Shown here: piece after piece, positions 11,621 to 48,092 of the stretch
Numbering within the stretch: position 1 is the stretch's first letter
Layout of the letters: the number at the start of each line of letters is the position of its first letter
Notes under the pieces: generated by a model
Databases searched by the model: none
What the model was told of the DNA's origin: nothing
Seen by the model: only the letters and a program-made list of their open reading frames with translations
NCBI RefSeq assembly: GCF_013044135.1
Contig: NZ_JABEPP010000005.1
Location: 62,001-126,000 of the forward strand
Source of the DNA: Enterovirga aerilata
Lineage (GTDB): Bacteria; Pseudomonadota; Alphaproteobacteria; Rhizobiales; Beijerinckiaceae
DNA: 64,000 nucleotides
Direction of reading: 5' to 3'
Program-made: the position numbers and the translations under genes

Positions 11621-11712
11621 GAATGTGGCTCGTCAAGCTAACCTTGTTATCATTTTCGTTGGGTCCGGGTATATTTTTCGGTCCATCGGGACCGTAGACG
11701 GAGAGCAGCGTT

Positions 11713-25965: not shown

Positions 25966-26595
25966 ATGGCATGGGCGATCGAGAACCCGGCCGCACTGGG
26001 GGAGGCGCTGCTGCGGCACATGGTGCTCGTCGGCCTTGCGCTTCTGATCTCCCTGGCGATCGCCCTGCCGCTCGGGATCTGGTCTGCGCGGCGCCCGCGC
26101 GCCTACACGGCCGTGCTGCTTGCCACGGGCCTCCTCTACACGGTCCCGGCACTCGCGCTCTTCGCTCTGCTCGTGCCCTTCATGGGGCTGGGAACGGCGC
26201 CGGCCGTCACGGCGATCGTCCTCTACTCGCTCCTCGTGCTGACCCGGAACGTGGCGGTCGGGCTGCAGACCCTGCCCGGCGAGGTGCTCGAGGCGGCGGA
26301 CGGCATGGGGTACGGCCGCTGGCGGCGGCTTCTCGCCATCGAGCTGCCGCTCGCCGCCCCGGTGATCGTCGCGGGCGTGCGGCTGACCGTGGTGACCCAG
26401 GTCTCCGTCGCCACGGTCGGCGCCTTCATCGGCGCCGGCGGGCTCGGCGACCTCATCTTCCAGGGCATCACGCAGGACATCGGCGAGAAGGTCCTGGCCG
26501 GGGCCGTCGCCGCTTCGGCCCTCGCCGTCCTCGCCGACGAGGCCCTGCGGCGGCTCGAGCGGCGGCTCGCCGCCTCCCAGGGCGGCGAGCCCTGA
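25966..26595 (+). CDS. osmoprotectant-type ABC importer permease (OpuCB/YehW-like)
   Basis: This 209-residue inner-membrane permease with about five to six hydrophobic segments carries the ATPase-contact loop E-V-L-E-A-A-D-G-M-G-Y-G. It also has the C-terminal G-A-G-G-L-G-D-L-I-F-Q-G-I motif shared by OpuCB/OpuCD proteins. It lies 22 bases after the binding-protein gene, and the second permease starts 2 bases after its stop. Confidence 0.88.
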   Translation: MAWAIENPAALGEALLRHMVLVGLALLISLAIALPLGIWSARRPRAYTAVLLATGLLYTVPALALFALLVPFMGLGTAPAVTAIVLYSLLVLTRNVAVGLQTLPGEVLEAADGMGYGRWRRLLAIELPLAAPVIVAGVRLTVVTQVSVATVGAFIGAGGLGDLIFQGITQDIGEKVLAGAVAASALAVLADEALRRLERRLAASQGGEP

Positions 26596-26597
26596 CC

Positions 26598-27239
26598 GTG
26601 CCGGACGTGATCGGCTGGATATGGAGCCACACCGCGCTGGTCGGGAGGACCGCACAGGAGCATGCGATCCTGTCGGCGGTCGCGCTCCTGCTCGTGCTCG
26701 CGACGAGCCTGCCCCTCGGATTCGGGCTCGCCCGGACGGGACGCCCCGCGACGCTGGTGGTCGCAGCCGCGAACACGCTGCGTACGGTGCCCAGCCTCGC
26801 GCTCCTGGTGATCATGCTGCCGATTCTCGGGACCGGCTTCCTCCCCTCGGTCGTGGCGCTGACGCTCTACGGATTGCCCGCCGTCCTGCTGAACACGATC
26901 GTCGGGCTGCGTGAGGTCGATGCCGACGTGGTCGAAGCGGCACGAGGCCAGGGGCTCTCGGAGGCCCAGATCCTGCGCGACGTGACGATACCGCTCGCGC
27001 TTCCGGTGATCCTCGCCGGCATCCGGACGGCGGCCGTCCAGATCGTCTCGGCGGCGACGCTCGCCGTGTTCATCGGCGGCGGCGGGCTCGGCGAGCTCAT
27101 CTCCTCCGGGCTCGCGCTCATGGACATGGCTCAGCTCACCGCCGGCGCGCTGCTCGTAGCGCTCTTCGCGATCGCGACGGAGCTCACCCTCGGCACGCTC
27201 CAGCGCTCCTTCGCCCGCCGCTTCGGCGCCCCGGCATGA
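26598..27239 (+). CDS. osmoprotectant-type ABC importer permease (OpuCD/YehY-like)
   Basis: This second permease of 213 residues starts at GTG 26598 just after the first permease stops. It has the contact loop V-V-E-A-A-R-G-Q-G-L-S and the signature G-G-G-G-L-G-E-L-I-S-S-G, and pairs with the first permease as a heterodimer. Its stop overlaps the ATPase start as ATGA. Confidence 0.87.
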   Translation: MPDVIGWIWSHTALVGRTAQEHAILSAVALLLVLATSLPLGFGLARTGRPATLVVAAANTLRTVPSLALLVIMLPILGTGFLPSVVALTLYGLPAVLLNTIVGLREVDADVVEAARGQGLSEAQILRDVTIPLALPVILAGIRTAAVQIVSAATLAVFIGGGGLGELISSGLALMDMAQLTAGALLVALFAIATELTLGTLQRSFARRFGAPA

Positions 27240-28234
27240 TCCGGCTCGAGGACATCGAGAAGCGCTTTCCCGGCCAGGCGCGGCCCGCCGTGGACGGGAT
27301 CGAGCTCGAGGTCCCGGCCGGCGAGACCTGCGTGCTGATCGGCCCCTCGGGCTGCGGCAAGACGACGACCCTGCGGATGGTGAACCGCCTCATCGAGCCG
27401 AGCGCAGGCCGGATCCTCGTGGAAGGCGAGGACATCGCGGGCGCCGATCCCGTCCGTCTGCGGCGCCGGATCGGCTATGTCATTCAGGGGGTCGGGCTCT
27501 TCCCCCACCTCACCGTGGGCGACAACGTCGCGACCGTGCCGCGGCTTCTGGCCTGGCCGGCGAGCCGCGTCGCAGCCCGGGTCGACGAGATGCTGTCCCT
27601 CGTCGGGCTGGAGCCCGGGGAGTTCCGAGACCGGCGGCCGGGCTCGCTCTCCGGCGGGCAGCGCCAGCGCGTCGGCGTGGCCCGGGCGCTCGCGGCCGAT
27701 CCTCCCGTCATGCTCATGGACGAGCCCTTCGGCGCCGTCGACCCGGTGGTGAGGGCGCGTCTCCAGCGGGACGTGGCAGAGATCCTGCGCCGGCTGGGCA
27801 AGACCGTCCTGATGGTGACGCACGACATCGACGAGGCGGTCCGGATGGGTGACCGGGTCGCCATCATGCGCGACGGCCGCATCGTCCAATGCGACAGGCC
27901 GGAACGACTGCTCGCCGCGCCGGCCGAGCCCTTCGTGGCCGATTTCGTCGGAGCCGACCGCGGGCTCAAGCGTCTCGCGCTCATCCCGGTCGGGGAGGCC
28001 GCCTCGCCCCGCTCCGCTCCGGCCGGCTCCCCGACCGTTGACGGCGGGGCTTCGCTCCAGGCGGCGCTCGCCGCGATGCTGGCGGCCGGCGCGGAGGCGG
28101 CGGCGGTCGCCGGCCCGGACGGCAGCGCCATCGGCTCCGTGACGCTCGCCGCGATCCGCGAGCGCGCCAGGACGCCGCCCGCGGCTCAGTCGCCGGCGAA
28201 GACAGGCTGCTCCTTGGCCACGAAGGCGCGGTAG
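27236..28234 (+). CDS. osmoprotectant-type ABC importer ATPase (OpuCA-like)
   Basis: This 332-residue ATPase has Walker A G-P-S-G-C-G-K-T (36-43), signature [11 protein letters not shown], Walker [11 protein letters not shown] and switch T-H-D-I-D-E-A. The C-terminal region (about 245-310) is short and alanine-rich, at most a reduced CBS-like part compared with true OpuCA. Its last 49 bases overlap the converging enoyl-CoA hydratase gene, so the final residues are read from antisense coding DNA. Confidence 0.88.
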
Positions 28235-29016
28235 GCTCGCCCGTAATCCTTCGTCTGCATGCAGATCGCCTGCGCCTGCGCTTCCGCCTCGATCGCGGCG
28301 TCGATCCCCATGTCCCATTCCTGGTGCAGGCAGGTCTTCGTCATGGCATGCGCGAAGGTGGGTCCGTCGGCGAGCTGGCGCGCCAGCGCCTGTGCCTCCG
28401 CCAGAACCTGATCGGGCTCCACGAGCCGGTTGTGGAAGCCCCAGCGCTCGCCTTCCTCCGCCGTCATCACGCGGCCGGTATAGAGCAGCTCCGACGCCCT
28501 CCCCTGCCCGATGATGCGAGGCAGGATGGCGCAGGCCCCCATATCCGCGCCGGCGAGCCCGACCCGCACGAACAGGAAGGCCGTCCTCGTGCGCGGGGTC
28601 GCGAGGCGCAGATCGGAGGCCATGGCGAGGATCGCGCCGGCGCCCGCGCAGACGCCGTCGAGCGCCGCGACGATCGGCTGCGGGCAGTGCCGCATCGCCT
28701 TGACGAGATCGCCCGTCATGCGGGTGAATGCGAGCAGCCCGCTCATGTCGCCGGCTTCCTGCATGCGCACGAGCGGGCCGATGATCTCGTGCACGTCTCC
28801 GCCCGAGCAGAAATTCCCGCCCGCGCCCGTGACCACGACCGTCTTGATCTCGGGCGCGTAGACGAGGTCCCGGAACAGGTCGCGGAGCTCGCCGTAGGAT
28901 TCGAAGGTGAGCGGGTTCTTCCGCTCGGGCCGGTTGAGCGTGATCGTCCCGACCTTGCCTTCCACGGACCACAGGAAATGGGCCGGGCGGAACTGCCCGG
29001 CATCGAAACGCTTCAT
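28186..29016 (-). CDS. enoyl-CoA hydratase family protein
   Basis: This 276-residue crotonase has the oxyanion residues in F-C-S-G-G-D-V and D-G-V-C-A-G-A-G-A, plus the catalytic-region motif [15 protein letters not shown] instead of the hydratase P-E-x-G-L suggests a subgroup acting on aromatic or branched acyl-CoA. It starts at ATG 29016, where M-K-R-F-D begins. It converges on, and overlaps, the importer ATPase gene, and no partner gene lies beside it. Confidence 0.82.
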
Positions 29017-29221
29017 CCCGAAATCCCCGCAAACCCCGTCCCATGCGCCAGGACCGGCGCCCATTGCGAGGCGGGCGAGTTCCCGTCAAGCGCCGCGGCG
29101 TCCGGGCGCGATCGGACGACGCGGAGGCAACGGTTGCGCCGACGCGCGGTCGCGTCTAGACGAAGCGCATCCTTCCCTGGCCGGCGGGTGCCGACCGGAG
29201 GACCGTCCGCGAGAGCGGGCC

Positions 29222-29311
29222 GGAGGGGTGGCCGAGTGGTTGAAGGCGCACGCCTGGAAAGTGTGTATACCGGAAACGGTATCGCGGGTTCGAATCCCGC
29301 TCCCTCCGCCA
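29222..29311 (+). tRNA. tRNA-Ser (GGA)
   Basis: This class II tRNA opens GGAGGGG and pairs with TCCCTCC at its 3' end (discriminator G, encoded CCA). The anticodon loop TGGAAAG carries anticodon GGA. A long variable arm (TATACC-GGAAAC-GGTATC) and GGTTCGAATCC T-loop are present. It decodes UCC and UCU. The accessory island begins just beyond its 3' end, a classic integration position, but no integrase or repeated tRNA tail was found. Confidence 0.97.
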
Positions 29312-29733
29312 ACCCGCCTCGCTAAGCGATTGAAACTGCTGATATTTCATCACTTGGCTACTGGCACAAACCTCGTTTCATCCCACATTCCGTATTGGAT
29401 CGAGGCCGCCCCAATCGGCCCTCTCTGGACTACCTGTCGCAATTCGGTCGTAAGCCCGCCGCGGCTGCGTCATGCATTCGCGCCGAGTCGCACGAGACTT
29501 GTCGCCGCCCAGCAGGCATAAGAGACGACCTCGCCCCGCTCAACTTCACGGGCCAACTGCACACAGTGCCGCTCGGCAACCGTTCGTGGTCGTTCAATCC
29601 AGGCGGGAGATCCGGGAGGGCGGCTTTAAGGGCGGGGAGCGTCCGACATGAAGGCGGCGTGGCGGCCTTCGTCGCCGCGGATAGTGGAGGCGACAGGGCG
29701 GCAGCTCTCCCGAGGCATGCAAACCTTGGTGGA
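29312..29733. other. post-tRNA intergenic stretch, no convincing gene
   Basis: Frames here are open by base composition but show no recognisable domain. The stretch separates tRNA-Ser from lower-GC DNA that starts near 29730. It is the likely left boundary zone of the accessory island. Confidence 0.4.
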
Positions 29734-30291: not shown

Positions 30292-31606
30292 GGGACTGTC
30301 AGGATTTTCGTGTGCGAACGGCGGGTTGAACATCAGGCCGCCATGGCCCTTGTGAAGCGCTGGCCGAAGAGCACGGCAAACTGCGCCTTGGCCATGCACC
30401 ACTCTCGCGGTGGCATTTTCCAGTCCTTCTCGGCTCGATTCAAGACCAGGAAGAGCAGCTTCATGGCTGCGTCGTCGGTTGGGAAGTGGCCCCTGGCCCG
30501 GACGGCGCGGCGCAGCTTGGCGTTCAGGGGCTCGATTGCGTTTGTGGTGTAGAGGATGCGGCGCACGTCCGCGTGGAAGGCATAGAACGGCACGACCTCG
30601 TTCCAGGCGCGCCGCCAGCTCTGCCCAATAGCCGGGTAGCGCCGGCCCCAGAGGCCCTCCTCGAATGCTGCGAGCGCGGCCCGGCCGGCTTCGGCGTCGA
30701 GCGCCCGGTAGATGCCCTTCAGGGCGGCCGCGACGGGCTTCCTGTCCTTGTAGGAGACGAAGTCCAGGCTGTGGCGCAGGAGATGGACGATGCAGGTCTG
30801 CACCGCCGTCTCGGGGAACACGGCCGTGATCGCATCCGGGAAGCCCTTCAGACCGTCGACGACGGCGAGCAGGATATCCTCGACGCCGCGGTTCCTGAGC
30901 TCGTTCATGACGCGGAGCCAGAACTTGGCGCCTTCGCTCTGTTCGAGCCAGAGGCCCAGGATCTCCTTGGCCCCGTCGGCCCGGACGCCGAGCGCGATGT
31001 GGACCGCCTTGTTGCGGACGATGCCCTCGTCCCGCACCTTGACCCTGAGGGCGTCGAAGAAGACGAGCGGGTAGACCGGCTCCAGGGGCCGCGCCTGCCA
31101 GGCCGCGATCTCCTCCAGAACCGCGTCCGTGACCGCGCTGACGAGGTCGGGCGAGACGTCGATCCCGTAGAGCTCGCGCAGGTGGCCGCGATCTCCCGGG
31201 CGCTCATGCCGCGGGCGTACATCGACACGATCTTGTCGTCGAAGCCCGGGAAGCGGCGCTGGTACTTGGCGATGAGCTGCGGATCGAAGGTCGCCTGCCG
31301 GTCGCGCGGGATCTCGAGCTCCATCCGGCCGGTCTCGGTCGTCACGGTCTTGCGGCCGTAGCCGTTGCGGCTGTTGCCGACTTCGTCCGACGCCAGATGG
31401 TGATCCATCTCGGCGTTCAGCGCCCTCTCGGCCAGGGCCTTCTTCAGATCCTCCAGAAGGCCGTTCGCGTCGAACGCCGTCTTCGGGTCGGCGCCGGCCA
31501 GAAGCTGATCCAGGAGCGCGTCAGGAATGCGGGGAGCTTTGCGTCGTGCCAGCGGAACCCTCCAGGTCCACTATGGCCGCCCGCACACGAAAATCCTGAC
31601 AGTCCC
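30292..31606 (-). mobile_element. IS256-family insertion sequence, full length (copy 2)
   Basis: The element is 1,315 bp. Its terminal inverted repeats are 25 bp and perfect: 30292-30316 (GGGACTGTCAGG and onward) and 31582-31606. They enclose one transposase gene on the minus strand. The flanks show no matching 8-9 bp target duplication (left ends GTCGAGA, right begins CAGCCAC), so the locus was rearranged after insertion. The element interrupts the receiver-like gene on its left. Confidence 0.9.
30333..31553 (-). pseudogene. IS256 transposase of copy 2, one-base deletion
   Basis: Aligned with copy 1, this gene lacks one G at about 31188 (GCGGCC against GTGGGCC), which shifts frame after S-A-R-E-I. 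The rest, from 31037 down to 30333, is open and complete. It contains V-V-D-G-L-K-G-F, C-I-V-H-L-L-R-H and the C-terminal N-A-I-E-P-L-N-A-K-L-R with the DDE Glu. The N-terminal codons begin near a CTG where relatives have ATG (A-R-R-K-A-P-R-I-P-D). It is probably inactive unless rescued by frameshifting. Confidence 0.8.
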
Positions 31607-31669
31607 CAGCCACCCGGCCCGACAGCGCCGCCGAGGGCGTCACTTAGTGCCGACGGGAGCGAATCGCTC

Positions 31670-31819
31670 TTGCTCGGTTTTTCGACTCGCTCTTGTTCTG
31701 GCCCACAGGGGAAATCGAATCGCTCTTACCCTGGTCCGTTAAGGTTGCTATCGGACCAGAGCTGGAGCGATTCGATCTCCGTTGGGGCCAGAACAAGAGC
31801 GAGTCGAAACACCGAGCAA
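31670..31819. repeat. 150-bp palindromic array of TCGCTCTT-type units
   Basis: Arms at 31670-31725 and 31765-31819 are reverse complements with few mismatches. The loop itself contains the perfect dyad CTGGTCCG/CGGACCAG. The core word TCGCTCTT occurs at 31664, 31687 and 31720, and inverted (AAGAGCGA) at 31795, 31818 and 31849, with a variant near 31764. The region would form a very long hairpin or cruciform. It lies between the IS256 right end and the SOS box, and no gene is credible inside it. Confidence 0.85.
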
Positions 31820-32025
31820 GAGCGAGTCGATCCCTGCTGAAACCGAGTAAGAGCGATCCGATCTCGGACATTTCCCGACGCTTTGGACCGGTTCCCTGAT
31901 GGTCAAACCGGCCTCGTCAGGTCGCGCGGTACCGCCGTTCGTTGTGCACACCTCGGACGATGGCGGACTTGGTCGATCATATCGGGCTGCGGCAGGCCTG
32001 AGACGCGGGCTTAAGAAGCGAGAGT

Positions 32026-32075: not shown

Positions 32076-32543
32076 TCATGCGCGGCGGCGCGGCGAAGGT
32101 GTGAGGGCGACGACCTTCGCGTGTTCGAATGGAAGGTCGAGTTGCGCGATTTGTGGGCCGGGGTCGAGAACGGTAGCGCGGAGACGCTCCATGACGCGGT
32201 CGACGCGCACGACGGTTATCGTTTCGACCTCCGGCAGGTCACGGTCGTCCCCGAACTCCATTTCGCTACCGACGATGAGGAGAGCCATCGGAAGGTTCGC
32301 AGGCTTTGTGCGCGCTTCGATCTCCGCGAAGAGCCAGGTGGCAGTCTCGCCGAAGCGGGAAACCGGCAGCCCGAGTTTCTGGACCGCCTGGGAGATCACG
32401 CATAGGCTCACCAGTTCGGGGTACGTGTAACGGTGCGAGCGGCCGTCATGGTCGCTGATGGGGGCGAGGATGCCCTTCCAGTGACGGAGCGTTTCCTTGC
32501 TGATACCAGCCAGCTCCAGGACCTGCGCCGTTTCGAACCGCAT
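32076..32543 (-). CDS. MerR-like helix-turn-helix regulator
   Basis: This 155-residue protein starts F-E-T-A-Q-V-L-E-L-A-G-I-S-K-E-T-L-R-H-W and then H-R-Y-T-Y-P-E-L-V-S-L, the MerR-type winged helix. No metal-binding Cys or long dimer coiled coil follows. It is divergent from the HD-nuclease pair, with a 117-base gap containing short A/T-rich DNA, and is a candidate regulator of that pair. The ligand or signal is unknown. Confidence 0.75.
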   Translation of the reverse strand: MRFETAQVLELAGISKETLRHWKGILAPISDHDGRSHRYTYPELVSLCVISQAVQKLGLPVSRFGETATWLFAEIEARTKPANLPMALLIVGSEMEFGDDRDLPEVETITVVRVDRVMERLRATVLDPGPQIAQLDLPFEHAKVVALTPSPRRRA

Positions 32544-32660
32544 CGACTTTTCCCGTTCGAAACAGGCGGGTGAAACAAAGTGGGGTTGACCCCACTTATA
32601 AACGCGATTTACCGCTGATCAAACTTCGGATTGTAGGATTCGGGAGTTCGGAGGGGTGCC

Positions 32661-33080
32661 ATGACGAGCCGGTTCGATGGCGCGGAGATCCTGGCGGCGG
32701 TGTGGAGGCTTGGTGCCGGTGACGAGCGGCTGCCGACTTCTCACGGCATTTTGGACAAGGCGCTCAAGGATTGTTTTGACGATCTGCCGGACCAGCTGAA
32801 GGGTGGGTTGTCGTTCGGTGTCACGGGGGTCGGCCTGCGCTGCTACGAGCTCCCCGACATTCTCCTCGCTGCGCAGGAGGCGCTGCTCACGACCGAGCCC
32901 AATCCGACTTATCTTTCCACGATGGTCACGCTGGACGAGGGCAGCGCCCGCCAGCTGGTGCTTTCGCACGGCATCAGGCCTGAGAAGGCCCGAACGGTCG
33001 GGCGGCGGCTGAGGGAGGTGGTCAAAGCTACCGCCTCAGGTCATTCAGAGTCCGATGAAGCGCAGTACGCTGCGGCCTAG
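32661..33080 (+). CDS. hypothetical protein coupled to HD-nuclease gene
   Basis: This 139-residue cytoplasmic protein belongs to no family I can name. It is mostly helical in appearance (A-E-I-L-A-A-V-W-R-L-G-A-G-D at the start) and ends with an acidic tail. It stops 3 bases before the GTG of the HD-nuclease gene, so the two are probably translated together and may form a complex or act as a pair. Confidence 0.65.
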   Translation: MTSRFDGAEILAAVWRLGAGDERLPTSHGILDKALKDCFDDLPDQLKGGLSFGVTGVGLRCYELPDILLAAQEALLTTEPNPTYLSTMVTLDEGSARQLVLSHGIRPEKARTVGRRLREVVKATASGHSESDEAQYAAA

Positions 33081-33083
33081 CGC

Positions 33084-35558
33084 GTGAGCGAGCTCCGGAG
33101 CCGTCTCAGGGGAGCGGCTCCCGAGATGTCCTCGCAGATCGAGGGCCTCGTCGCTACCTGGCTCGCCAGCCTGTCGGAGCGATTGAAAAGAAATGTCGAG
33201 TTCAGGCCGAAGCAGGTCAACGACCCCGTCTGGGGGACCATCGAACTGCTTCCGTGGGAAGTCGGAATCCTTGACACCCCGCTGCTGCAGCGGATGCGAG
33301 GCGTTAAACAACTCGGGCTCGCCCAGCTTGTCTTTCCCGGCGCGTGTCACGGTCGGCTCGAACACATCATCGGTGTGGTCGGTGCGGTCGAGGAGGCTTT
33401 ACGAGCGCTCGGCCGCCAGATCGACCGCTGGAACAGGGATAATCCGTCCGGTCTTCTCGCGCCGGTCGAGGAGAAGGACCGATACGCGCTGCGCCTTGCC
33501 GCGCTGCTTCACGATATCGGGCACGGGCCGTTCAGCCATGCCCTGGAGCCGGTTCTGGAGGTCGAGGCTCCCCTCCTGATCGAGGGAGGCAGTCTGGACG
33601 CGGCATGGCGGCGGGAGATCCGCGCCGTCCAAGGCGAACTTAGGCGCAGCTACCAACTCAACGGTCTGCCAGCGGCCTCCGAAGTTCTGGCCGTCATGAT
33701 GGTCCTGACGAATGCGATGGAGGCTGCCCTCGGAAACGATAAGCTGTTTCCGGCACGGTCGCGACCGGTAGGCGAGCTACTGGACATTATCGTGGCCGCG
33801 ATCATCGGCGGCGTAGAAGGACCCGGCGTCCTGCCCTTTTCCGCTTTGATCAGCAGTCAAATCGACGCGGATAAGATGGACTATCTTGCTCGCGATGCTC
33901 ACCACGCGGGGCTGGAGATCGGGTTCGACACGAGCAGGCTGCTGGCGCGGTTGGAAGTTCTGATCGTGCAGGAGAAGAGCCTGGACGCGTCCGAGAGCGC
34001 GCTTCGGGAGCGGGCGGCGAGGAGTCCAGAGGGACGCTTCTTACAATTGGGTATCGCCGCGTCCGGCTTTGGTTCCTTCGAGCAGATGCTGATTGGCCGG
34101 ACCTTCCTCTACGACCGCCTCTACCATCACCACAAGGTTCGAGCCGCTGAAGCCATGGCTCAGCGCCTTATCCTTGTGGCCGAACGCGACCGAAAGAAGC
34201 GCTTCGGTTTGGACGAGATCTTCATCAGCGTTGATGACAACACGATCCTGCAGATCTTTGCAGACGAGGTGACCCACAAGGGCCTGAACCTCGGACCCTC
34301 GCCGAAATCGGCATCGCTGGCGCGGGGAATCCTCGACCGCAATCTGCTTCACCGGGCGTTTGCCTTTCGAGGGCGCTTCATCGCCTCGCCACCAGGCGTC
34401 AAGGACACCACCGCCGATGCAAACCGTCAGGCGCTCTGGGCGCGGATCGTCAAGAGTTTGGATACCGTCGCAGGCCGGTACGCGCTCGGGGAAGAGATCT
34501 ACAACGTTGCGCTCACGTGCGCGAACGTCCTGCAGGCTGCAGGCATTCAGGGAGAGGGGATGGAGCGATATCGGAATGCTCTCGAAACGGGCGGCCCCGA
34601 GCACATCCTGGTGGATCTGCCGGCCCTGAAAGCGGACGCCATCCGCATCCTGGCTAGGTATCCGAACGGCGCCATCAAGGTCCCCGAATTTTCGTTCAAC
34701 CCCGTAAAGTGGTCACACGCCTACGAGCTCCAGAAGCGGACGGGCTACGTGTTCTGCGCGCGAGAGGTTGTGCCGGTCGTCGCACTGGCGGCGAAGATCG
34801 TGTTCCTTAGCCGCTTCGGCGTGACGATGGCGCGGGAAGCGGACGGCTACATCAAGGTGTCGAGTCAGGTGGAGCCGTCGTGGCTGCAGGCATTGGTAAA
34901 CGCCGACATCATCGACCAGGCCGTATCCGACCATCTCTCCGACGCGCGTCATTCGCTGATGACCATACGCGCCGAGGATCTGCAGGTCCCGGAAGGCTGG
35001 CTGCAAGACGATCAGGATTTCGCGGCCCAACTCGCGAATGAGATACAGCAGCGACTCTCCGGCGGGCTCACGGCGGAGCATCTCAAAGCCCTTGGCGCCA
35101 CGCTCGCGGCGATGTTCGCGTTCGTCGACCAATGGTACGCTGGAGGGCGCGTATCAAGGCCGCTTGCCGACGAGGGAGAGCTGCAGGGGCACCTGGAACA
35201 ATGCCTGCGTTACCGCGGTCTCCGCGTCGAGGAGGGTTCGGTCGTGGGCGGCGGCAAGCTCGATCTCTTTGTCGAGCGTTCCATGCTGATCGAGAACAAG
35301 TTCGAGGGTGCGGTGAAGAACCCCGCCGCAGCCGCACCTGCGGCGGGGATGCAGGGCCGTCGCTACGCGGTTGCGCTCGATTCTCAGGTGGTCATCGTCG
35401 TCGTCGGCTACGACGCTAAAAACGTCGGGCTGCCTTCGAAGCCGGCCTGCGTGACCGTGAGCGACATCAAGCGTGACGACCGGAACCGGGCGGAGATCCG
35501 CTTTAGCCTTCCTTACGGCGCTCCTGTCCCGTCGCGAGTTAAGCCCGACCAGGCTTGA
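33084..35558 (+). CDS. SAMHD1-like HD phosphohydrolase fused to a PD-(D/E)XK nuclease domain
   Basis: This 824-residue protein has an N-terminal HD domain with His94 (R-L-E-H), H143-D144 (L-L-H-D-I-G-H-G-P-F-S-H) and a late Asp in D-A-D-K-M-D-Y-L-A-R-D-A-H-H. The latter closely resembles SAMHD1 and bacterial dNTP triphosphohydrolases. A long middle region has no recognised domain. The C-terminus has D727 and E737-N-K739 (K-L-D-L-F then L-I-E-N-K-F-E), the PD-(D/E)XK pattern. dNTP depletion plus DNA cleavage would suit anti-phage defence, which is inferred. GTG is the start. Confidence 0.82.
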   Translation: MSELRSRLRGAAPEMSSQIEGLVATWLASLSERLKRNVEFRPKQVNDPVWGTIELLPWEVGILDTPLLQRMRGVKQLGLAQLVFPGACHGRLEHIIGVVGAVEEALRALGRQIDRWNRDNPSGLLAPVEEKDRYALRLAALLHDIGHGPFSHALEPVLEVEAPLLIEGGSLDAAWRREIRAVQGELRRSYQLNGLPAASEVLAVMMVLTNAMEAALGNDKLFPARSRPVGELLDIIVAAIIGGVEGPGVLPFSALISSQIDADKMDYLARDAHHAGLEIGFDTSRLLARLEVLIVQEKSLDASESALRERAARSPEGRFLQLGIAASGFGSFEQMLIGRTFLYDRLYHHHKVRAAEAMAQRLILVAERDRKKRFGLDEIFISVDDNTILQIFADEVTHKGLNLGPSPKSASLARGILDRNLLHRAFAFRGRFIASPPGVKDTTADANRQALWARIVKSLDTVAGRYALGEEIYNVALTCANVLQAAGIQGEGMERYRNALETGGPEHILVDLPALKADAIRILARYPNGAIKVPEFSFNPVKWSHAYELQKRTGYVFCAREVVPVVALAAKIVFLSRFGVTMAREADGYIKVSSQVEPSWLQALVNADIIDQAVSDHLSDARHSLMTIRAEDLQVPEGWLQDDQDFAAQLANEIQQRLSGGLTAEHLKALGATLAAMFAFVDQWYAGGRVSRPLADEGELQGHLEQCLRYRGLRVEEGSVVGGGKLDLFVERSMLIENKFEGAVKNPAAAAPAAGMQGRRYAVALDSQVVIVVVGYDAKNVGLPSKPACVTVSDIKRDDRNRAEIRFSLPYGAPVPSRVKPDQA

Positions 35559-35721: not shown

Positions 35722-37215
35722 ATGGACGTCACCCTGCACGTTCCCGGGTTGGGAAACATCACGGACGAAGACATCGGTACTCTGACACCGATGCGCGACG
35801 GCCGGTGGAGTGCGCAGACAAAAGCGCTGCTGGCCGAGTTCAAGACGAATCGGCTCGACCTGAACAGCGCGTGGGCGGCGACGTGGACCGGCTGGACGTG
35901 TCCTTGCTGCGGACGAGGCAAGCCGGAGATCGCTCGGGTGAGCGCCGGCGGCGTCCTCCTATGTCGGCTGGAGCGGCATCACGACCACTTGGCCGACCTG
36001 GCGCATTCCATCTTCGACCGCAGCAATCCGAAGACGAACGATCCGCGGTTCAACCTGGAGGCCGACCGTGCCCGCGACGCACTGACGATACTTGTCGAAC
36101 GTTTCGAACCCGCGGTGCTCTGCCTGGACTGCAACCTTGCAGAAGGGATAGCCAAGCAGGCACTGCGCAACAAAGGGCTTCCGTCTTACTTCACCTTCAA
36201 ACCTTCCGAGATTGCCGACTTCGTATCAGCATCTCCCAATCGCGTTCACGAGATTGATCTTGAAGCTGCCGAGCAAACTTGGTTGGCATCGAAGGATGAT
36301 CTCGCCAGCCGCGATGCATTCCTGACGATGATGGTGAGCCGGGTCACGGCAGGCCTTCATCGGCGAGAGATAGCGCGCGGCCGCCAACCCGAGCCGCTGC
36401 TGGACCGCGACGTCGTTTTCCGGCTCTTCTCTCAAGCCGCACCGAAGGGTTTCCGCTTCGATCTCGCTTCCGCCGTCGAAGCTCGCTCAGTGTCACGAGA
36501 CAGCAGCAGCAATTCTTCCCGGGTTCGGCGTCGACGCCCGAGCGCTGCACCGAGTGACGCCGAGTTCGCTGCGGTCGAGGCGGAGCAGCGTCCCGGGCGC
36601 ACGTGGGTGAGCGCGGGTGAGGACTGGACGTGCCCGTGCTGCTCGCGCTCCAAACGTGCGATCTGCCGGCGCTCCAATTCCGGACGTTGGACAGCTCAAA
36701 TCTTCGTCGTCCATGAATATCAGGCTGAGTGCGAGGCAGAGAATCTGGCCCACCGCCAGCTGGCGGCCACCGCTGCAGCCACCGTGGGATCGCACCGCGC
36801 CATTCTCATCTGCCAGGACTGTCGTAACATCACCACGCGGCTGCGGCAGCAAGCGCCGGACCTCGACGAGGCCTGCCTCACTCCGGGGAACATCAGAGAC
36901 CTCGCTGGGTCTCCGACCGCGAATGCGGACCACGACGTAGACCTAACGCGAGCGATGACCCTCGCACGCGCCAACGCAGACCATTGCTTGGCTGTGGCTG
37001 ACTATCATCGCCACCGCGTTGCAGCAGCTGCGGCGCTCGCTGACGTGGCGCTGCGCGTACGCCTCGGCTTGTCCTACGAAGCTGCCATCAGCGGCCTTGC
37101 GCGCGATGTCGATGAAGCCCGAGGACTGAATACGCAGCAGGCCGCTTATCACGCCGCGTGGTTGCTTGCTGAAGGACAGCGCTTCAAGGATCTCGATTTA
37201 GATGCGCCTGCTTAG
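35722..37215 (+). CDS. protein with two tandem zinc/HNH-like modules
   Basis: This 497-residue protein holds an internal duplication. Each half has W-T-C-P-C-C-x-R-x-K (about residues 58-67 and again near 300) and later a C-x-D-C knuckle (C-L-D-C-N and C-Q-D-C-R). The first module also has H-H-D-H (86-89), so cysteine pairs plus His resemble a zinc-supported HNH nuclease core. The second module lacks the H-H-D-H and may be structural. It lies between two nuclease genes in the island, so DNA binding or cutting is likely but unproved. Confidence 0.65.
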   Translation: MDVTLHVPGLGNITDEDIGTLTPMRDGRWSAQTKALLAEFKTNRLDLNSAWAATWTGWTCPCCGRGKPEIARVSAGGVLLCRLERHHDHLADLAHSIFDRSNPKTNDPRFNLEADRARDALTILVERFEPAVLCLDCNLAEGIAKQALRNKGLPSYFTFKPSEIADFVSASPNRVHEIDLEAAEQTWLASKDDLASRDAFLTMMVSRVTAGLHRREIARGRQPEPLLDRDVVFRLFSQAAPKGFRFDLASAVEARSVSRDSSSNSSRVRRRRPSAAPSDAEFAAVEAEQRPGRTWVSAGEDWTCPCCSRSKRAICRRSNSGRWTAQIFVVHEYQAECEAENLAHRQLAATAAATVGSHRAILICQDCRNITTRLRQQAPDLDEACLTPGNIRDLAGSPTANADHDVDLTRAMTLARANADHCLAVADYHRHRVAAAAALADVALRVRLGLSYEAAISGLARDVDEARGLNTQQAAYHAAWLLAEGQRFKDLDLDAPA

Positions 37216-37247: not shown

Positions 37248-38069
37248 TCAGGTGGGAGAGCCTGACGTGTCTGGCAGGCTATCTTGATGCTTCGGTTCGA
37301 TCGCCTTAGTTCCACCTTTTGTAGCTGCTGCCTCGAACTGCATGACGAGATGCACGACGTTTAGCGGTTCGGCATTGTCGAGAAGCGGACGGTCGATGTG
37401 GCTCCAGAGCGCGACTTCGCCTTCACTGGCTCGTCGCATCCTGGTCTGGGATCGCGGCACCGGCACTGCCGCCGCCATCGCATCCTCGACCGCGGTGAGC
37501 CAATACTCTGTCGTCTCGCCGACCGTATACGCCAGCATGCCGGCGACACCCTTGGCCGGATAGGGCTCAGGCGGAAGCGTGAAGCAGCCAAGTCCCGCCT
37601 CGCCGAGGTAAGCTTCCGATAGGTCCTTCAGAGACACTATGAGCTTGGCTTCGAAGACGACGAAAGGCGCTTCGCGCCCGATCTGGGACTCTGCCTTTAT
37701 GTCGATACGCCGCGAGTTCTTTCCGGTTCTCCGCCTGGAAGAGATGCGCGCCTCGCTCCGAAAAACAACTTCGAGAGAACGCAGGATGTGGTCGGGAGGA
37801 ACTGTCTTCCTGTACTCGTCAAGTTGTTCCGCCAAGGCACAGGTCACGCCTTCTTCCGACGGAAGCCGGCGATGCTGCTCCGCCGGACCTGGGCGTGGTT
37901 TCAGAAGCGCACCATTTTTCGACGTGTGCTCCTGCCAGTAATCCGGATGCCGAACTCTCGTTACGGCTTCCTCTAAAGCGTCAAGGACGGCGTCCAGAAA
38001 CCTGGCCCAGACGCTCGCCTGGAGGGGGCCGAATCCGCGTTCCGCAAGATGGACTTCAAGCGGCGTCAC
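37248..38069 (-). CDS. PD-(D/E)XK restriction endonuclease-like protein
   Basis: This 273-residue protein has Asp123 in R-R-I-D-I and F-E140-A-K142, a PD-(D/E)XK arrangement, with basic residues just before (S-S-R-R-R-T-G-K). It overlaps the end of the methyltransferase gene by 4 bp as ATGA. It therefore looks like the cutting partner of a restriction-modification pair translated after the methylase. Family membership is by motif only. Confidence 0.6.
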   Translation of the reverse strand: MTPLEVHLAERGFGPLQASVWARFLDAVLDALEEAVTRVRHPDYWQEHTSKNGALLKPRPGPAEQHRRLPSEEGVTCALAEQLDEYRKTVPPDHILRSLEVVFRSEARISSRRRTGKNSRRIDIKAESQIGREAPFVVFEAKLIVSLKDLSEAYLGEAGLGCFTLPPEPYPAKGVAGMLAYTVGETTEYWLTAVEDAMAAAVPVPRSQTRMRRASEGEVALWSHIDRPLLDNAEPLNVVHLVMQFEAAATKGGTKAIEPKHQDSLPDTSGSPT

Positions 38070-41000
38070 GCATCGGGTCCGCTGAACACGCGTTCAAGGA
38101 GGTGTCGGCTGTCGGTCACGGCCTGCTCCCGTGACCAGCGCGCCGCAACCAGCGGCTTCGTCACCGCCGCGAACTGTGCGGCAGCGTCGTAGACGAGTGA
38201 CGTTCCTTCCAGTGCTTCCGAGCGGGCCTGCACGTCGCGAGAACGGGCGTTGTCGACTGCGTGCAACTGCGGCAGGTGACGGGAGAAGGTCACGTTGACG
38301 GTACCTGCGCCCTCTGCGCCGGATGCGAGCTCGACGCCGACATGCCAGCCCGAGGTGAGCGCGCGTTCTAACTCCAGCGACAACGTCTCGCGGTAGCCGT
38401 CGATCTCGACCGTTGTGGGCGTCCTCAGCGCCGTGAGTGGGAGAATGCCATTCTCGAAATTCAGTCGCGTAGTAACATATTCACGGGCGACGGAACCGAG
38501 TTCGGGCGAGAGCAGCATGAACTCGGGCAGGATTTCCTCCAATTCTGCATCGGACGCCGTCAACACTTCCGTGATGCGAGGGTCCTCCAAGCTCGTGAAC
38601 GGGATGGGCAATCGTTCGAGATCGGCTGCTTCGAAGCGGCGGCGGTCAACCATCCACATCCGGCCGTAGAGCGCGGCGGCATAGCGGACGAAGTTGGAGT
38701 TGAGATAGCGCGCAAGCGCCTTGAGCAGTCTCAATCGATCCGGTGCCAGCGCCGTATTGGGTTCACGCTGGAAGTAAATGCCGATCAAACTTGAATTGAA
38801 GGCGAATGGCGTGGGGACGAAGTCAGCTCTATTCAGGTTCCGGGGAACGACCACGATGTCCCCCCGGAACAGGGAATCGTAGGGCGCATTCGCCCGCGCG
38901 AGGTCTTCCGGCGTTAGGCTGTAGCTCTTCGGTTGGACCGAGGCGCGCTTCTTCGTGAGCTCCGTTTCGAGGCGGCCAGGGCGAGGCTTCTCCGGCAGAC
39001 CAAGGCGTCGAACGTAGTGTTTCTCGCCTTGGGTGCCGAGATGTAGGTCGTCCTGCAGTCCGGTCTGCTTCGGGGGGCCGCCACGGCGGATGGAGAAGTC
39101 GAGCTCTCGTGCGAGAGCGGCGAGTGTCAAGATCTCGCCCGACCGGCAGCGGTCGTCGAGATAGGTCGCCACCCGACGGTCAACCGGGCGCAGCATGAGC
39201 GCGCGGAACAGTCCTTCTGGGTCTGACATCTGCCTTCGGGGATGGACTTCGATGTCCATCAAGTCCTGCACGATGCACCACGGGCGCCCCGAGCGGTCGA
39301 GAGGAAGGGCCGAGAGGAGGGGATAGTGTACCCAGATAGCGTCGTCGGCGGAGGGCGTTGCGCGCCTGCCCACGACGGCGATGGCCGGATGTTCTGCGCC
39401 GGGGAACAGCTTGCGCCGGAGATGCGTCAGATTCACGAGGCCCGTCACGCCCACCTGTTTGATGAACTGCTTGGGAAAGCGGTTCGCACCTGGGCTCAGG
39501 AACGACTTGGCCGATAGGACCATGCCAAACACGCCGCCTTCCTTGAGGAGCGTGTCGTATCCGGTCCAGAAGAAGAGTTCAGCAGCGCGGTCACGGTCCA
39601 TCTTTCGATGAAGTTCATGTTCCTCGGCCCAGGTTTCGGCGGTCTTGCCGATGACCCCGACCTTCTGCCAGGGTGGATTGCCGAGAAGGACGTCGAAACT
39701 GTTGGGAAATCCGGCGGGCCGGGGCGCTGTGTCGAAAAGATCCCGCGCCAAGAGCGATGTTCCGATCAGCGGGGGGAAGATGGTCTGCGCATTCGGGTCT
39801 CGTCCCGCGAGCGCCATCTCCGCGACGAGTGCATCGCCGCCGTATTCCAGCATGGTCAGGAACAGGCTGAACGCGGCGATCTGCACCGCATCCTCGTTGC
39901 GCTCGATGCCATAGATGCTGTCGACCAGGATCTGTCTCAAACGCTCAAGCGGCAGGTGCTCCCGGTCGTCCTCGTCAAGAACCGTTTCGAGCATCCGCCG
40001 ATATGCGCCGACGAGGAACAGGCCCGACCCGGCCGAGCAGTCGACGACCTTCAAGCCCGGCTCAACCGGTTTTATATCGTCGACTTTGGACAGGACGTAG
40101 TCGACGAGAAAGGGCGGCGTGTAGAAGGCGCCGTCCTCGTCTTTGACGCCATCGCCCTCGCTTTCGAAGAACATTTCGTACACGGCGGAGAGCGTCTCCG
40201 TCCGCACAACCGACAGGTCGACCTCGAAGAGGTTCGGCTGGCTTACGCCGTCGAGCAGAAGCTCTCCGCCCTTGATAACGCGCCGAACCAGATCAGCCTG
40301 CTCTTTCGTGATGCGTTTGCGATGCGTGATTGGAAGGTGAAACACGCGACCGTTGAACACGCGGTCGAGGTCGTCGAGGAGATCCCACAGGCTTTGAAGC
40401 TCCCAAGCGTCTTTCGTCAGAATGCCTTGGTGTCCTCTGCCCGCGAGCCACTCGGGGGTGATGATTCCCCGATCCAGGAGACAGTAGAAGTAGAGCAGGC
40501 TTGCAATCAGCTTGTTGGCTGTCCGCCTTGGGAGCGCGCAGACATCGTTCGCTCCCGTCAATGCAGCGCCGAGCGCGCGCAATCCCCCGAGCAGATGCGC
40601 GTCCACACGAGTTCCCGCCGAACCTAAGTCGGACTGCGCGAACTGGACCGAGGCGCGGATGCTCCCGGCGCGGAGGTGACGGAACGGGAGGAAAGCCGGA
40701 TTGTCGATGGGGCCGGGCGACGGAAGCTCGGATGGCCATGTTGCCTTCCAGGTACTTCCGGTCCACCCGGTCGAAGCATAGGTCGTCGCGTCGCACAACC
40801 AGATCTCATTCGGCGTCACCACGAGCAGGAACGGTACAACGCCCTGGCTCCAAACCCGGCGGTGGATCGTCCGTACCTCGTCCTCGGTGTTCGCTTGCGC
40901 GACATAGACCAGCGGGAGGAAGTCGGGGCAACCGCTCTGCCGTGTTGTCCTTCGCAGTCCGAACGCCCCGACGACCCCCATCGTTGCAACGGCTTGGGCC

Positions 41001-41134
41001 AGGAGGTGACGGCAGCCGCGGGCGCGGTTGAGCTCGTCACCCCGAACCCAATTCGGCCGGCCTTCGTAGTCGAGCCAGCTCAGCACCTGCTCGACCCGGC
41101 GATGAAGCTTCACCGAGTTGACCACTTTCCCCAC
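38066..41134 (-). CDS. Eco57I-like adenine-specific DNA methyltransferase
   Basis: This 1022-residue protein has an N6-adenine methylase core: motif X G-A-F-Y-T-P-P (345-351), SAM motif V-V-D-C-S-A-G-S-G (363-371) and catalytic N-P-P-W (486-489). The C-terminal 450 residues form a probable target-recognition region. The N-terminal 300 residues may include a nuclease-like or helical domain as in type IIG/ISP enzymes, but no clear nuclease triad is visible. It is transcribed ahead of the PD-(D/E)XK gene, so modification is made before restriction. Confidence 0.85.
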   Translation of the reverse strand: MGKVVNSVKLHRRVEQVLSWLDYEGRPNWVRGDELNRARGCRHLLAQAVATMGVVGAFGLRRTTRQSGCPDFLPLVYVAQANTEDEVRTIHRRVWSQGVVPFLLVVTPNEIWLCDATTYASTGWTGSTWKATWPSELPSPGPIDNPAFLPFRHLRAGSIRASVQFAQSDLGSAGTRVDAHLLGGLRALGAALTGANDVCALPRRTANKLIASLLYFYCLLDRGIITPEWLAGRGHQGILTKDAWELQSLWDLLDDLDRVFNGRVFHLPITHRKRITKEQADLVRRVIKGGELLLDGVSQPNLFEVDLSVVRTETLSAVYEMFFESEGDGVKDEDGAFYTPPFLVDYVLSKVDDIKPVEPGLKVVDCSAGSGLFLVGAYRRMLETVLDEDDREHLPLERLRQILVDSIYGIERNEDAVQIAAFSLFLTMLEYGGDALVAEMALAGRDPNAQTIFPPLIGTSLLARDLFDTAPRPAGFPNSFDVLLGNPPWQKVGVIGKTAETWAEEHELHRKMDRDRAAELFFWTGYDTLLKEGGVFGMVLSAKSFLSPGANRFPKQFIKQVGVTGLVNLTHLRRKLFPGAEHPAIAVVGRRATPSADDAIWVHYPLLSALPLDRSGRPWCIVQDLMDIEVHPRRQMSDPEGLFRALMLRPVDRRVATYLDDRCRSGEILTLAALARELDFSIRRGGPPKQTGLQDDLHLGTQGEKHYVRRLGLPEKPRPGRLETELTKKRASVQPKSYSLTPEDLARANAPYDSLFRGDIVVVPRNLNRADFVPTPFAFNSSLIGIYFQREPNTALAPDRLRLLKALARYLNSNFVRYAAALYGRMWMVDRRRFEAADLERLPIPFTSLEDPRITEVLTASDAELEEILPEFMLLSPELGSVAREYVTTRLNFENGILPLTALRTPTTVEIDGYRETLSLELERALTSGWHVGVELASGAEGAGTVNVTFSRHLPQLHAVDNARSRDVQARSEALEGTSLVYDAAAQFAAVTKPLVAARWSREQAVTDSRHLLERVFSGPDA

Positions 41135-43494: not shown

Positions 43495-44477
43495 TTGGCG
43501 CTCCTGGTGCGAACACCGTTGCGGAACGGGTTGTGGTCCGTGATGCCGAGGGGGATGGCCCAGTTCTGCACAGCCTCATCGAGATCGTCCCGGGAGATCT
43601 TTCGGGCGCCGCGCCGGATGGCGCGCTCGCAGGCGACTTCGAAGACGTTGGAAGCGATCCCGATCACGCCGCCGCTCACGTCGTACATGCAGGACGGAAT
43701 GTCTCCGGCGACCAGCCCCGAGCAAGACTTCATGATGCCGTGCTCGACGAGCTTGAGGTCGAAGCCGGCGCAATGGTCGAGGAACATCCCGAGTTCCTCC
43801 TTGAGCGAGACGTCGAGGGGGTTGAGGAAGATCGGCTCCAGGCAGCGGTTCTTGAACTGCGGGTTCTTGAGCAGCAGAGGCTTGGCCTCCTCCGTCCCGA
43901 TCAGGATGAGCGGGCAGGTGCCGCGGATCAGCCAGCGCTTGATGGTTTCGGTCACGCTCCAGGCGGTTTTGCCCCCCTTGCCCCCGGTCTCGACGCCGGT
44001 CCCGTCCGTGTTGATGGTGTGGTGGATCTCGTCGAGTACGATGAGGTCGGTTTCGCCGACATCGCTGTGGTTGGCGGCGCGCCGCATCAGCTTGGCCGCG
44101 GTGCCCTCCTCGAAGTCGGGGTCGCCGTAGGCTTCCAGGATGTCGCTCGCGAGGGTCTTCACCCGTGCCTGCGCCGACAAGGTGACGTGCAGCATGGGCC
44201 GAAGGTCGTCGTTCCGGCGCGACACGGCGGGCGTCGTCTCGATGTAGTGCTCGATGCAGGTCGACTTGCCCGACCCGGACGGTCCGATGATGGGCAGGAA
44301 CTTGTGTGGGGTCCGCTTTCCCTTTCGGCCCTTCTCGATCCATTCCTGCCGGTTGGCGCGCCCGACCTCGCGCATGATCTCGATCTCGCGCCGGATGCGC
44401 TCCAGGCGGGGATGGACGATGCGGAACTTGCGGAACTCCCGCCGGGCGTGAGCCAGCCGATCTTCCTGGTTGGTCAT
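43491..44477 (-). CDS. tniB: TniB/TnsC-like AAA+ transposition ATPase
   Basis: This 328-residue AAA+ protein has Walker A G-P-S-G-S-G-K-S (65-72) and Walker B L-I-V-L-D-E-I-H-H, with the E-I-H-H typical of TniB. It should polymerise on target DNA, contact TniQ and activate TniA. The ATG at 44477 overlaps the tniA stop. The longer frame to 45134 is antisense-free but lies within tniA and is rejected. Confidence 0.88.
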   Translation of the reverse strand: MTNQEDRLAHARREFRKFRIVHPRLERIRREIEIMREVGRANRQEWIEKGRKGKRTPHKFLPIIGPSGSGKSTCIEHYIETTPAVSRRNDDLRPMLHVTLSAQARVKTLASDILEAYGDPDFEEGTAAKLMRRAANHSDVGETDLIVLDEIHHTINTDGTGVETGGKGGKTAWSVTETIKRWLIRGTCPLILIGTEEAKPLLLKNPQFKNRCLEPIFLNPLDVSLKEELGMFLDHCAGFDLKLVEHGIMKSCSGLVAGDIPSCMYDVSGGVIGIASNVFEVACERAIRRGARKISRDDLDEAVQNWAIPLGITDHNPFRNGVRTRSAK

Positions 44478-46795: not shown

Positions 46796-46797
46796 GG

Positions 46798-47549: not shown

Positions 47550-48092
47550 TCAGTGCTCCCAGTCCGCTTCCGGCACCCCGCCGGTCCACTCGATCTCGTG
47601 CGGCTCGATCGCGGCGATGCGCTCGGGGGTGGCGATCTCATAAGGTCCGTCGCCGGCGCGGATCTCGATGCTGGCAAAGCGCTCGACCGGAATGACGCCG
47701 CGATAGAAAAACCAGTCCTCGACGAAGCGAGGATTGCCCGCGTGGCGCTTCTCGAAATCGATGATCTGCTCCCCAACGCCGCCGCGCGCGAACGGCAGCC
47801 AGCGGCGGAGCCTGCGATCCGTGGACGGGATCACGACGGTGATGCGCACGGCACGCTTGTCGACCGTGCCCATGGTGGCCGGCATGCCCAGCGCGATCAT
47901 CTCGGCGGTAGCGATGAGCGTAGCCGTCCCGTCCCCGAGGCCCTGATGGTCGGGATCGGGATCGAGGGAGAGCCAGGTGGCGGTGAGGGTCTTCTCGCCG
48001 CGCTGGCCGACGATGACGTCGCCCTTGCAGAGACCGCCGGAGGCGATGATGTGCGGCAGGTGCCCTTCGGAGGTGAAGTGGAAGAGGCGCAT
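47550..48092 (-). CDS. hypothetical protein, possible ART-like fold
   Basis: This 180-residue protein begins M-R-L-F-H-F-T-S-E-G-H-L-P-H-I-I and then G-G-L-C-K-G-D. That opening resembles several ADP-ribosyltransferase-like or DarT-like proteins, though no catalytic Glu motif can be assigned. It ends W-E-H. It lies 35 bases upstream of tnsA in the same direction, suggesting one transcript. The function is unknown. Confidence 0.55.
   Translation of the reverse strand: MRLFHFTSEGHLPHIIASGGLCKGDVIVGQRGEKTLTATWLSLDPDPDHQGLGDGTATLIATAEMIALGMPATMGTVDKRAVRITVVIPSTDRRLRRWLPFARGGVGEQIIDFEKRHAGNPRFVEDWFFYRGVIPVERFASIEIRAGDGPYEIATPERIAAIEPHEIEWTGGVPEADWEH

Follow-up and report, generated by a model that had tools for sequence, protein, structure and literature searches.

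A rare, mobile gene module encoding a SAMHD1-type HD protein with a predicted nuclease domain and a small partner, with a probable role in anti-phage defence

Introduction

Antiviral depletion of deoxynucleoside triphosphates (dNTPs) is known in animals, through SAMHD1, and in bacteria, through dGTPases and the Clover system. Little is settled about how such depletion is triggered and restrained, or how it is paired with further effectors. A stretch of 64,000 nt from Enterovirga aerilata (assembly GCF_013044135.1, contig NZ_JABEPP010000005.1, positions 62,001 to 126,000 of the forward strand), hereafter termed the window, carries at 32076–35558 a locus of three genes: a divergent regulator (REG), a 139-residue protein (SM) and an 824-residue protein (HDN) in which a SAMHD1-type HD core is followed by a predicted nuclease domain. 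An original prediction, made from the sequence alone, regarded these genes as a candidate defence module. The locus raises the question of whether the three genes form an antiviral system and what the two halves of HDN would contribute to it. We propose that REG-SM-HDN is probably a mobile module directed against phages (or plasmids), and that the dNTPase of SAMHD1 type and the nuclease within HDN work jointly under SM and REG.

Results

SM and HDN form a co-inherited gene pair

Homologues of HDN were collected from species genomes, plasmid records and viral contigs. One search of 84,980 species genomes yielded eight loci. Five match the whole protein at 51–65% identity, namely those of Xaviernesmea (L002), Hoeflea (L003), Litoreibacter (L004), a Rhodobacter metagenome-assembled genome (L005) and Bradyrhizobium (L006), and the remaining three are archaeal and match the HD core alone. 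Among 38 plasmid records with a match, three carry the full gene (Rhizobium, L010; Sphingobium, L011; Desulfosarcina, L012, which is 34–35% identical), two represent one Methylocystis plasmid entered twice, with the HDN gene truncated beside an IS6 transposase (L013), and 33 match part of the HD core only. The HD half on its own is therefore not special. Two contigs in IMG/VR contain the full module (L014/L015, 56%; L016, 35%). With the window included, 12 module loci were obtained; HDN is intact in ten of them, whereas in L005 it is split and in L013 cut short.

SM is located directly upstream of HDN in 12/12 loci. The spacing is 2–25 bp in the ten intact loci and 3 bp in the window, where the two genes together occupy approximately 2.9 kb. 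A search of the plasmid collection with SM alone returned six records, which are the five HDN records and one Rhizobium leguminosarum plasmid; SM is thus present in 5/5 plasmid records with HDN and in 0/33 of those with a partial HD match. The pairwise distances of SM and HDN are strongly correlated (r 0.957, permutation p 1e-4, ten loci), as are those of the HD core and the nuclease domain of HDN (r 0.925, ten loci). The co-occurrence and the correlated distances of SM and HDN indicate that the two proteins travel and evolve together. Because other organisms have homologues of HDN with 35–65% identity over nearly the full length, and SM precedes every one of them, these genes are real, and the observation at 32076–35558 is confirmed. 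The coordinates and residue numbers of the original prediction proved correct on re-reading, and the check that it had proposed, co-conservation of the 139-residue gene with HDN, was strongly positive.

The module is rare and mobile. SM was found in 1/385 genomes of a class sample, 1/199 of a family sample and 1/398 of a phylum sample (the three samples overlap), and the genome was always that of the window; HDN was likewise found in 1/385 class-sample genomes at an E threshold of 1e-30, the one genome being its own. The Rhizobium plasmid of L010 is typed as conjugative, and further copies reside on the plasmids of L011–L013. On the viral contig L016, the module (2597–5518) lies between a phage head-completion gene (192–896) and baseplate, NlpC/P60 and gene-transfer-agent-type tail genes (8096–14158), a setting that may represent a prophage or a gene-transfer-agent cluster.

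HDN combines a SAMHD1-type core with a predicted nuclease domain

HDN matches the Pfam families HD (E 1e-6) and HD_assoc_2 (8.8e-6). Its HD motif comprises H94, H143-D144 and D263, the last of which lies in DADKMDYLARDAHH at residues 261–274. Residues 41–292 match SAMHD1 (5ao0_A; phmmer E 1.4e-24), and the match to dGTPase models is weak, with 17.2 bits against the PADLOC dGTPase (E 6.5e-4, residues 115–159) and 17.5 bits against the NCBIfam dGTPase subfamily TIGR01353, which has a cut-off of 152.35. The equivalent residues of HDN and SAMHD1 (7ujn) are K43/K116, D64/D137, Q69/Q142, R72/R145, R91/R164, H94/H167, H143/H206, D144/D207, H147/H210, H152/H215, D263/D311, K264/K312, Y267/Y315 and D271/D319. 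According to the available excerpts of PMC4592219, the SAMHD1 metal is held by H167, H206, D207 and D311, R164 and Y315 touch the phosphates, and binding of the allosteric guanine nucleotide falls to D137, Q142, R145 and K116. The HDN residues H94, H143, D144, D263, R91, K43, D64, Q69 and R72 are identical in 10/10 intact homologues, and variation among the equated residues is confined to K264 (Arg in 3/10) and Y267 (Phe in 2/10). The conserved allosteric-type residues suggest that HDN is controlled by nucleotides.

The resemblance to SAMHD1 appears to continue beyond the HD lobe. The Foldseek matches listed for the predicted HDN model are nearly all SAMHD1 (best E 3.5e-10). The best VIA-align match, 8tdv_B, has a Z of 18.1 with 285 residues superposed at 5.8 Å and covers model residues 40–580. 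The best 50 VIA-align matches are all SAMHD1 or its orthologues by title (Z 16.5–18.1), and some of them reach model residue 624 (Z ~17). These comparisons suggest, at moderate precision, a likeness that extends along the core. A SAM domain was not matched in HDN by Pfam, and merely ~40 residues precede the core.

The C-terminus of HDN is predicted to be a PD-(D/E)XK nuclease. Such domains are recognized by the pattern D...(D/E)xK, by flanking acidic or Gln residues and by an alpha-beta-beta-beta-alpha-beta core. HDN contains D727 ... E737-N-K739, and E697, Q701, E717, D727, E737, K739, Q757, R759, R760 and Y761 are invariant in 10/10 homologues. The predicted order of residues 697–811 is helix-strand-strand-strand-helix-strand-strand-strand, with a predicted local distance difference test score (pLDDT) of about 54–89 per block. 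Profile searches with this domain gave no significant match in the PDB or Pfam: one of the ten members reached REase_MTES_1575 at an E of 0.056, and HDN 693–777 reached PHROG 5928 only at 0.0056. The mean pairwise identity is 0.54 in the HD core vs 0.43 in the nuclease domain. Both the SAMHD1-like HD motif and the D727...E737-x-K739 motif named in the original prediction are present, and both residue sets, including the metal ligands, are kept in all ten intact homologues, the changes at K264 and Y267 being conservative.

SM is probably a winged-helix-like protein

SM has no match in Pfam, PADLOC, NCBIfam or PHROGs, and a profile search of the PDB revealed no relatives (best E 0.24). An AlphaFold2 model built from eight sequences has a pLDDT of 88.9. 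In the VIA comparison, Z does not exceed 5.6, which is in the range of common arrangements. Foldseek returned no significant match, the best (E 0.16) being 7yk3_D, a DarTG toxin-antitoxin chain. The top structural rows are largely BusR, ORC, RsrR, PadR and MarR, chains that contain winged helices, and other rows include a mitoribosomal protein, Apaf-1 and DarTG. Our best guess from the model is that SM is a small winged-helix-like protein.

A divergent MerR-like gene accompanies most module loci, and a palindrome some of them

REG matches Pfam MerR_1 just under the cut-off (E 6.6e-4) and has one weak PADLOC match (mad1). A divergent gene occupies this position in 9/12 module loci and is absent in L005, L012 and L016. 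The gene of the window and seven others were identified by tblastn; the gene of L003, which is ~21% identical to that of the window, was assigned by position and matches MerR_1 at 5e-8. Six of the nine were run against Pfam and all match MerR_1, those of L003 and L004 above the cut-off.

The divergent REG/SM promoter region of the window contains the palindrome AAGTGGGGTTGACCCCACTT, which has no other copy in the window. Its arm length was reached by 3/1000 mononucleotide shuffles of the promoter region. The palindrome core TGGGGTTnACCCCA is perfect in 4/9 loci with a REG gene (window, L002, L010 and L006) and degenerate, as judged by eye, in 3/9 (L013, L011 and L015); it was not seen in the divergent promoters of L003 and L004. 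The presence of the palindrome in a divergent promoter points to transcriptional control by REG, which would act as a repressor of the module.

Defence genes recur near the module

Thirty neighbouring proteins from ten loci were selected by eye, with L016 left out of the scan, and 17/30 have a PADLOC match. The Septu pair PtuA and PtuB adjoins the module in L004 and L010 and lies one gene off in L011 (PtuA E 6e-127, 4e-109 and 9e-174), and a PtuB piece adjoins it in L002. CBASS genes are located near the module in L010 (cyclase and SAVED-HNH) and L012 (cyclase, E1-E2, JAB and NucC), Dsr2 lies ~6 kb from the module in L006 (E 1.3e-138), QatC is present in L015, and the window itself has a Type IIG-like enzyme. 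Septu, CBASS, Dsr2, Qat or restriction genes are thus found nearby in 8/12 loci, or in nine if the weaker QueC-like gene of L013 (E 2.9e-13) is included.

As a separate observation, a Septu pair or PtuB piece stands at or near the module in 4/12 loci, which could reflect chance islanding or a functional link.

The module of the window lies in a variable region next to a tRNA gene

The features of the locus and its surroundings are given in Table 1.

Table 1. Positions of the module, its predicted domains and nearby features in the window.
Feature	Position	Strand	Description
REG	32076-32543	-	divergent MerR-like regulator, 155 residues
SM	32661-33080	+	139-residue partner, predicted winged-helix-like
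HDN	33084-35558	+	824 residues, GTG start; SAMHD1-type HD protein with C-terminal nuclease-like domain
HDN residues 40-624	33201-34955	+	SAMHD1-core-like domain (phmmer and VIA-align)
HDN residues 693-824	35160-35555	+	predicted PD-(D/E)XK nuclease domain (conserved residues, alignment, helix/strand order in the model)
Candidate operator AAGTGGGGTTGACCCCACTT	32578-32597	none	divergent REG/SM promoter region; perfect 9-bp arms
tRNA-Ser (GGA)	29222-29311	+	edge of the variable region carrying the module
Restriction-modification-type gene pair	37248-41134	-	273 residues and 1022 residues (Type IIG-like methylase)

Synteny with a genome of the same genus (L040) spans 25979–29312 and ends at the tRNA-Ser gene; the L040 contig stops 748 bp past the tRNA. 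The module starts 2.8 kb beyond this gene. In a further genome (G422), the tRNA alone matches the window and is followed closely by a gene of the serine-recombinase type (Pfam Recombinase, E 5.3e-13), so that G422 contains another element at the tRNA and is not an empty site. The 3´ end of the tRNA-Ser gene is not repeated elsewhere in the window, as would be expected at the far border of the island, and a far-side gene gave matches in the genus that were too weak to place the right boundary.

Both surroundings named in the original prediction, restriction genes and a Tn7-like module, were found. The 1022-residue protein matches PADLOC REase_MTase_IIG (E 7.6e-30) and Pfam Eco57I (2.3e-11), and its 273-residue neighbour has no family match in Pfam, PADLOC or NCBIfam. 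The Tn7-like tniQ/tnsB set occupies 41404–46942 (TniQ E 7.5e-6; Mu-transpos_C 0.0017, below its cut-off). Mu transposase, TniB and TniQ are annotated near L013, as in the window. With regard to whether the module belongs to the Tn7-like element, 11-mers common to the palindromes at 31.6–31.95 kb and the rest of the window are only local or scattered.

Four other features of the window were observed. A Mutator-type (IS256-like) transposase, split across two reading frames, is located at 30333–31408. Between these transposase remnants and REG, at 31660–31870, a GAATCGCTCTT/AAGAGCGA-type unit recurs as a cluster in both direct and inverted orientation, with scattered 11-mers only elsewhere in the window. 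Immediately downstream of HDN, at 35722–37215, a gene encodes a 497-residue protein with CPCC and CLDC-type cysteine clusters and no Pfam match above the cut-off. A 180-residue open reading frame at 47550–48092 on the minus strand is DarT-like by eye and has no Pfam match.

Discussion

A proposed mechanism

The gene order, the co-inheritance of SM and HDN, the conserved residues of both HDN domains, the resemblance to the SAMHD1 core, the palindrome, the rarity of the module and its mobile and defence-rich settings are observed; the winged-helix-like fold of SM comes from a predicted model. By analogy to SAMHD1 and Clover, we infer that HDN would have both dNTPase and nuclease activity. Between infections, REG bound to the TGGGGTTnACCCCA palindrome would keep transcription of SM and HDN low, and SM, produced from the coupled upstream gene, would hold HDN inactive or place it on DNA. 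Upon infection, the trigger may be phage DNA encountered via SM or a raised dNTP or dGTP level sensed at the allosteric site of SAMHD1 type. Assembly of the HD core would then lead to hydrolysis of dNTPs, the PD-(D/E)XK domain fused to it would cut DNA, and replication would be starved and destroyed simultaneously. Phages are the presumed target. The recurrence of defence genes nearby and the two copies on viral contigs support the defence role that the original prediction had assigned to the module, and we consider this role likely.

Several observations weigh against this interpretation. The HDN model is weak to moderate overall (pLDDT 67.4, predicted TM score 0.43, seven sequences), with residues 325–406 and 514–551 below 50, and its best Foldseek superposition is loose (TM 0.46 by target, root-mean-square deviation 11.9 Å). 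The allosteric-type motif is also partly present in the alignment of a simpler bacterial HD protein, 2hek, so these residues do not prove SAMHD1-like allostery or nucleotide control in HDN. Because the C-terminal domain has no significant match to a Pfam family or to a solved structure by PDB profile, the nuclease assignment rests on motif and topology. REG is missing in 3/12 loci and only 21–27% identical to that of the window in L003, L011 and L015. On the R. leguminosarum plasmid pRlX5, two paralogues of SM (L017 and L018, match near 9001; 43% and 39% identical) stand alone, with no HDN beside them. The neighbours were picked by eye, and their PADLOC matches therefore do not measure an unbiased enrichment; in L003 and L005, none of the three neighbours searched in each had a defence match in PADLOC. 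In a PADLOC control with ten open reading frames outside the island, 2/10 had matches; both encode transporter-type ATPases and match the generic ATPase models mad3, mad8 and AriA, with a best E of 1.2e-32. The PtuB piece of L002 (1.7e-21), the QueC-like gene of L013 and the mREase IV of L010 (5e-11) are weaker than this best control match. The Type IIG match in the window, supported by Pfam Eco57I, is no stronger than it, and the PtuA, CBASS and Dsr2 matches are far stronger than the control and family-specific.

Alternative explanations

The HD core may mainly sense dNTPs or oligonucleotides and drive oligomerization, so that the C-terminal nuclease is the true effector, similar to ligand-switched defence nucleases. 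The invariance of the allosteric-type residues K43, D64, Q69 and R72 in 10/10 homologues is consistent with such a sensor, as is the tetramerization of SAMHD1 upon nucleotide binding described in the excerpts of PMC4592219 and PMC7045340. In a viral-contig protein described below (L021), the position of the nuclease is taken by PRTase-CE, which also fits a sensing core and suggests that the C-terminal domain is exchangeable. However, the metal ligands of the HD core are strictly kept and this core is more conserved than the nuclease domain, so catalysis by the HD core seems to be under selection. We regard a mainly sensory HD core as doubtful.

Alternatively, the genes may constitute a toxin-antitoxin-like addiction module that stabilizes plasmids, prophages and islands, with HDN as the toxin (dNTPase and DNase), SM as the antitoxin and REG as the regulator. 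The short distance between the small upstream gene and HDN in ten loci is compatible with a type II toxin-antitoxin layout, and the divergent regulator with its palindrome, the plasmid and viral-contig locations and the DarTG chain as the best, insignificant Foldseek row of SM point in the same direction. In contrast, defence genes lie near most loci, a full dNTPase core is oversized for a toxin that serves addiction alone, and stand-alone SM paralogues exist. An addiction module is unlikely on balance, and addiction and defence are not mutually exclusive roles.

That HDN is an enzyme of nucleotide-pool housekeeping or of DNA repair, its nuclease being incidental, is highly improbable and was rejected: dNTP balance is a known task of bacterial dGTPases and of SAMHD1-like proteins, but HDN is rare and patchy in the genome samples, resides on plasmids and viral contigs, is single-copy in a genome with eight other HD-domain places and is preceded by SM in every module locus, in contrast to the single-copy housekeeping homologues without a partner that the original prediction had named as the opposite outcome. 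The excerpts of PMC12265719 term E. coli Dgt a housekeeping enzyme.

For the anti-phage reading, a broader model is possible and is put forward tentatively. A SAMHD1-type core would serve as both nucleotide sensor and dNTP-depleting effector and would gate an exchangeable C-terminal effector, PD-(D/E)XK in HDN and PRTase-CE in L021, with a small winged-helix partner licensing the core by coupling it to DNA. Such an immune architecture would unite the depletion of dNTPs and the destruction of DNA in a single polypeptide, and it could be a prokaryotic relative of the antiviral SAMHD1 branch. More generally, a protein that joins a SAMHD1 core to a nuclease and has a partner dedicated to it would offer a compact, testable case of two effectors governed by a single switch, and would be informative about how antiviral enzymes of SAMHD1 type arose. 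The short module has clear catalytic-type residues that are suited to mutation.

Comparison with known systems

No named system corresponding to the HDN fusion with its SM partner was found with PADLOC 2.0.0, Pfam, NCBIfam or PHROGs, in agreement with the original prediction that the system was not a recognized one. Among the titles and abstract openings of the literature matches listed, none describes a fusion of a SAMHD1-type HD core and a nuclease with an SM-like partner; Clover is the nearest, and an earlier description is possible.

Compared with SAMHD1, HDN shares the HD catalytic residues, the core resemblance and the guanine-site residues of the first allosteric site. It differs by having no match to a SAM domain, by a C-terminal nuclease-like domain, by sharing an operon with a regulator and a small partner protein, and by its bacterial and mobile nature. 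Single-gene anti-phage dGTPases, reportedly described by Tal et al. in 2022 (cited in PMC12265719), are the same general HD-enzyme type tied to antiviral dNTP depletion; unlike them, HDN matches dGTPase models weakly and has a fused nuclease-like domain and a partner.

Clover, as presented in the excerpts of PMC12265719, is an anti-phage system of the dGTPase CloA, with an HD domain and a helical bundle, and the nucleotidyltransferase CloB. In that system dTTP switches the dGTPase on, a nucleotide signal from the partner holds it back, and inactivation of the CloB active site is toxic to the cell. On this partial account, the two-gene logic of an HD dNTPase-type protein with a proposed regulatory partner is similar, whereas SM has no nucleotidyltransferase match and is winged-helix-like by model. 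Membership of the module in Clover was rejected, as the partner differs and the HD subfamily differs (TIGR01353, above).

Short SAMHD1-type HD proteins resemble the HD half of HDN. Those of Klebsiella phage ST11-VIM1phi8.3 and S. meliloti pSymA match Pfam HD and are ~26–27% identical to HDN over the HD core. Eight partial-HD records (six plasmids and two phages) were opened, seven of which are annotated; their HD proteins of 431–510 residues leave no room for a nuclease. None of the genes upstream of these seven is SM-like (oxidoreductase, AAA ATPase, acetyltransferase and others), and the plasmid ones have no SM match. In three Sinorhizobium and Labrenzia plasmid records (L023, L024 and L027), a ~477-residue HD protein belongs to an annotated four-gene set with a radical SAM protein, a 3´-5´ exonuclease and an AAA family ATPase, near ThiF, N-6 methylase or Shedu-like genes; this set is perhaps a nucleotide-modifying or defence operon.

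The HD part of HDN matches the phage family phrog_35128 (511 positions, function unassigned; E 5.7e-26), as do L016 and L021, and the best stretch covers only HDN residues 43–158. In L021 (viral contig, 7235–10369), a gene for a 135-residue protein directly precedes that of a 908-residue HD protein between phage tail genes. The HD core of the latter is 31–34% identical to those of L012 and L016, and at the C-terminus of this protein PRTase-CE (E 1.3e-23) stands where HDN has its nuclease-like domain. Homology between the 135-residue protein and SM was not detected by hhalign (probability 0.1, one of the two sides being a single sequence) or by tblastn of the plasmids, and we therefore do not claim that the partner is the same. 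This one example, likely a sister of the module with a different effector, suggests a wider architecture of a small partner, a SAMHD1-type core and an exchangeable effector. Defence by HD dNTPases is already known, and the fusion of a SAMHD1 core to a PD-(D/E)XK domain, with a winged-helix-like partner, is most likely a new variant of dNTP-depletion defence.

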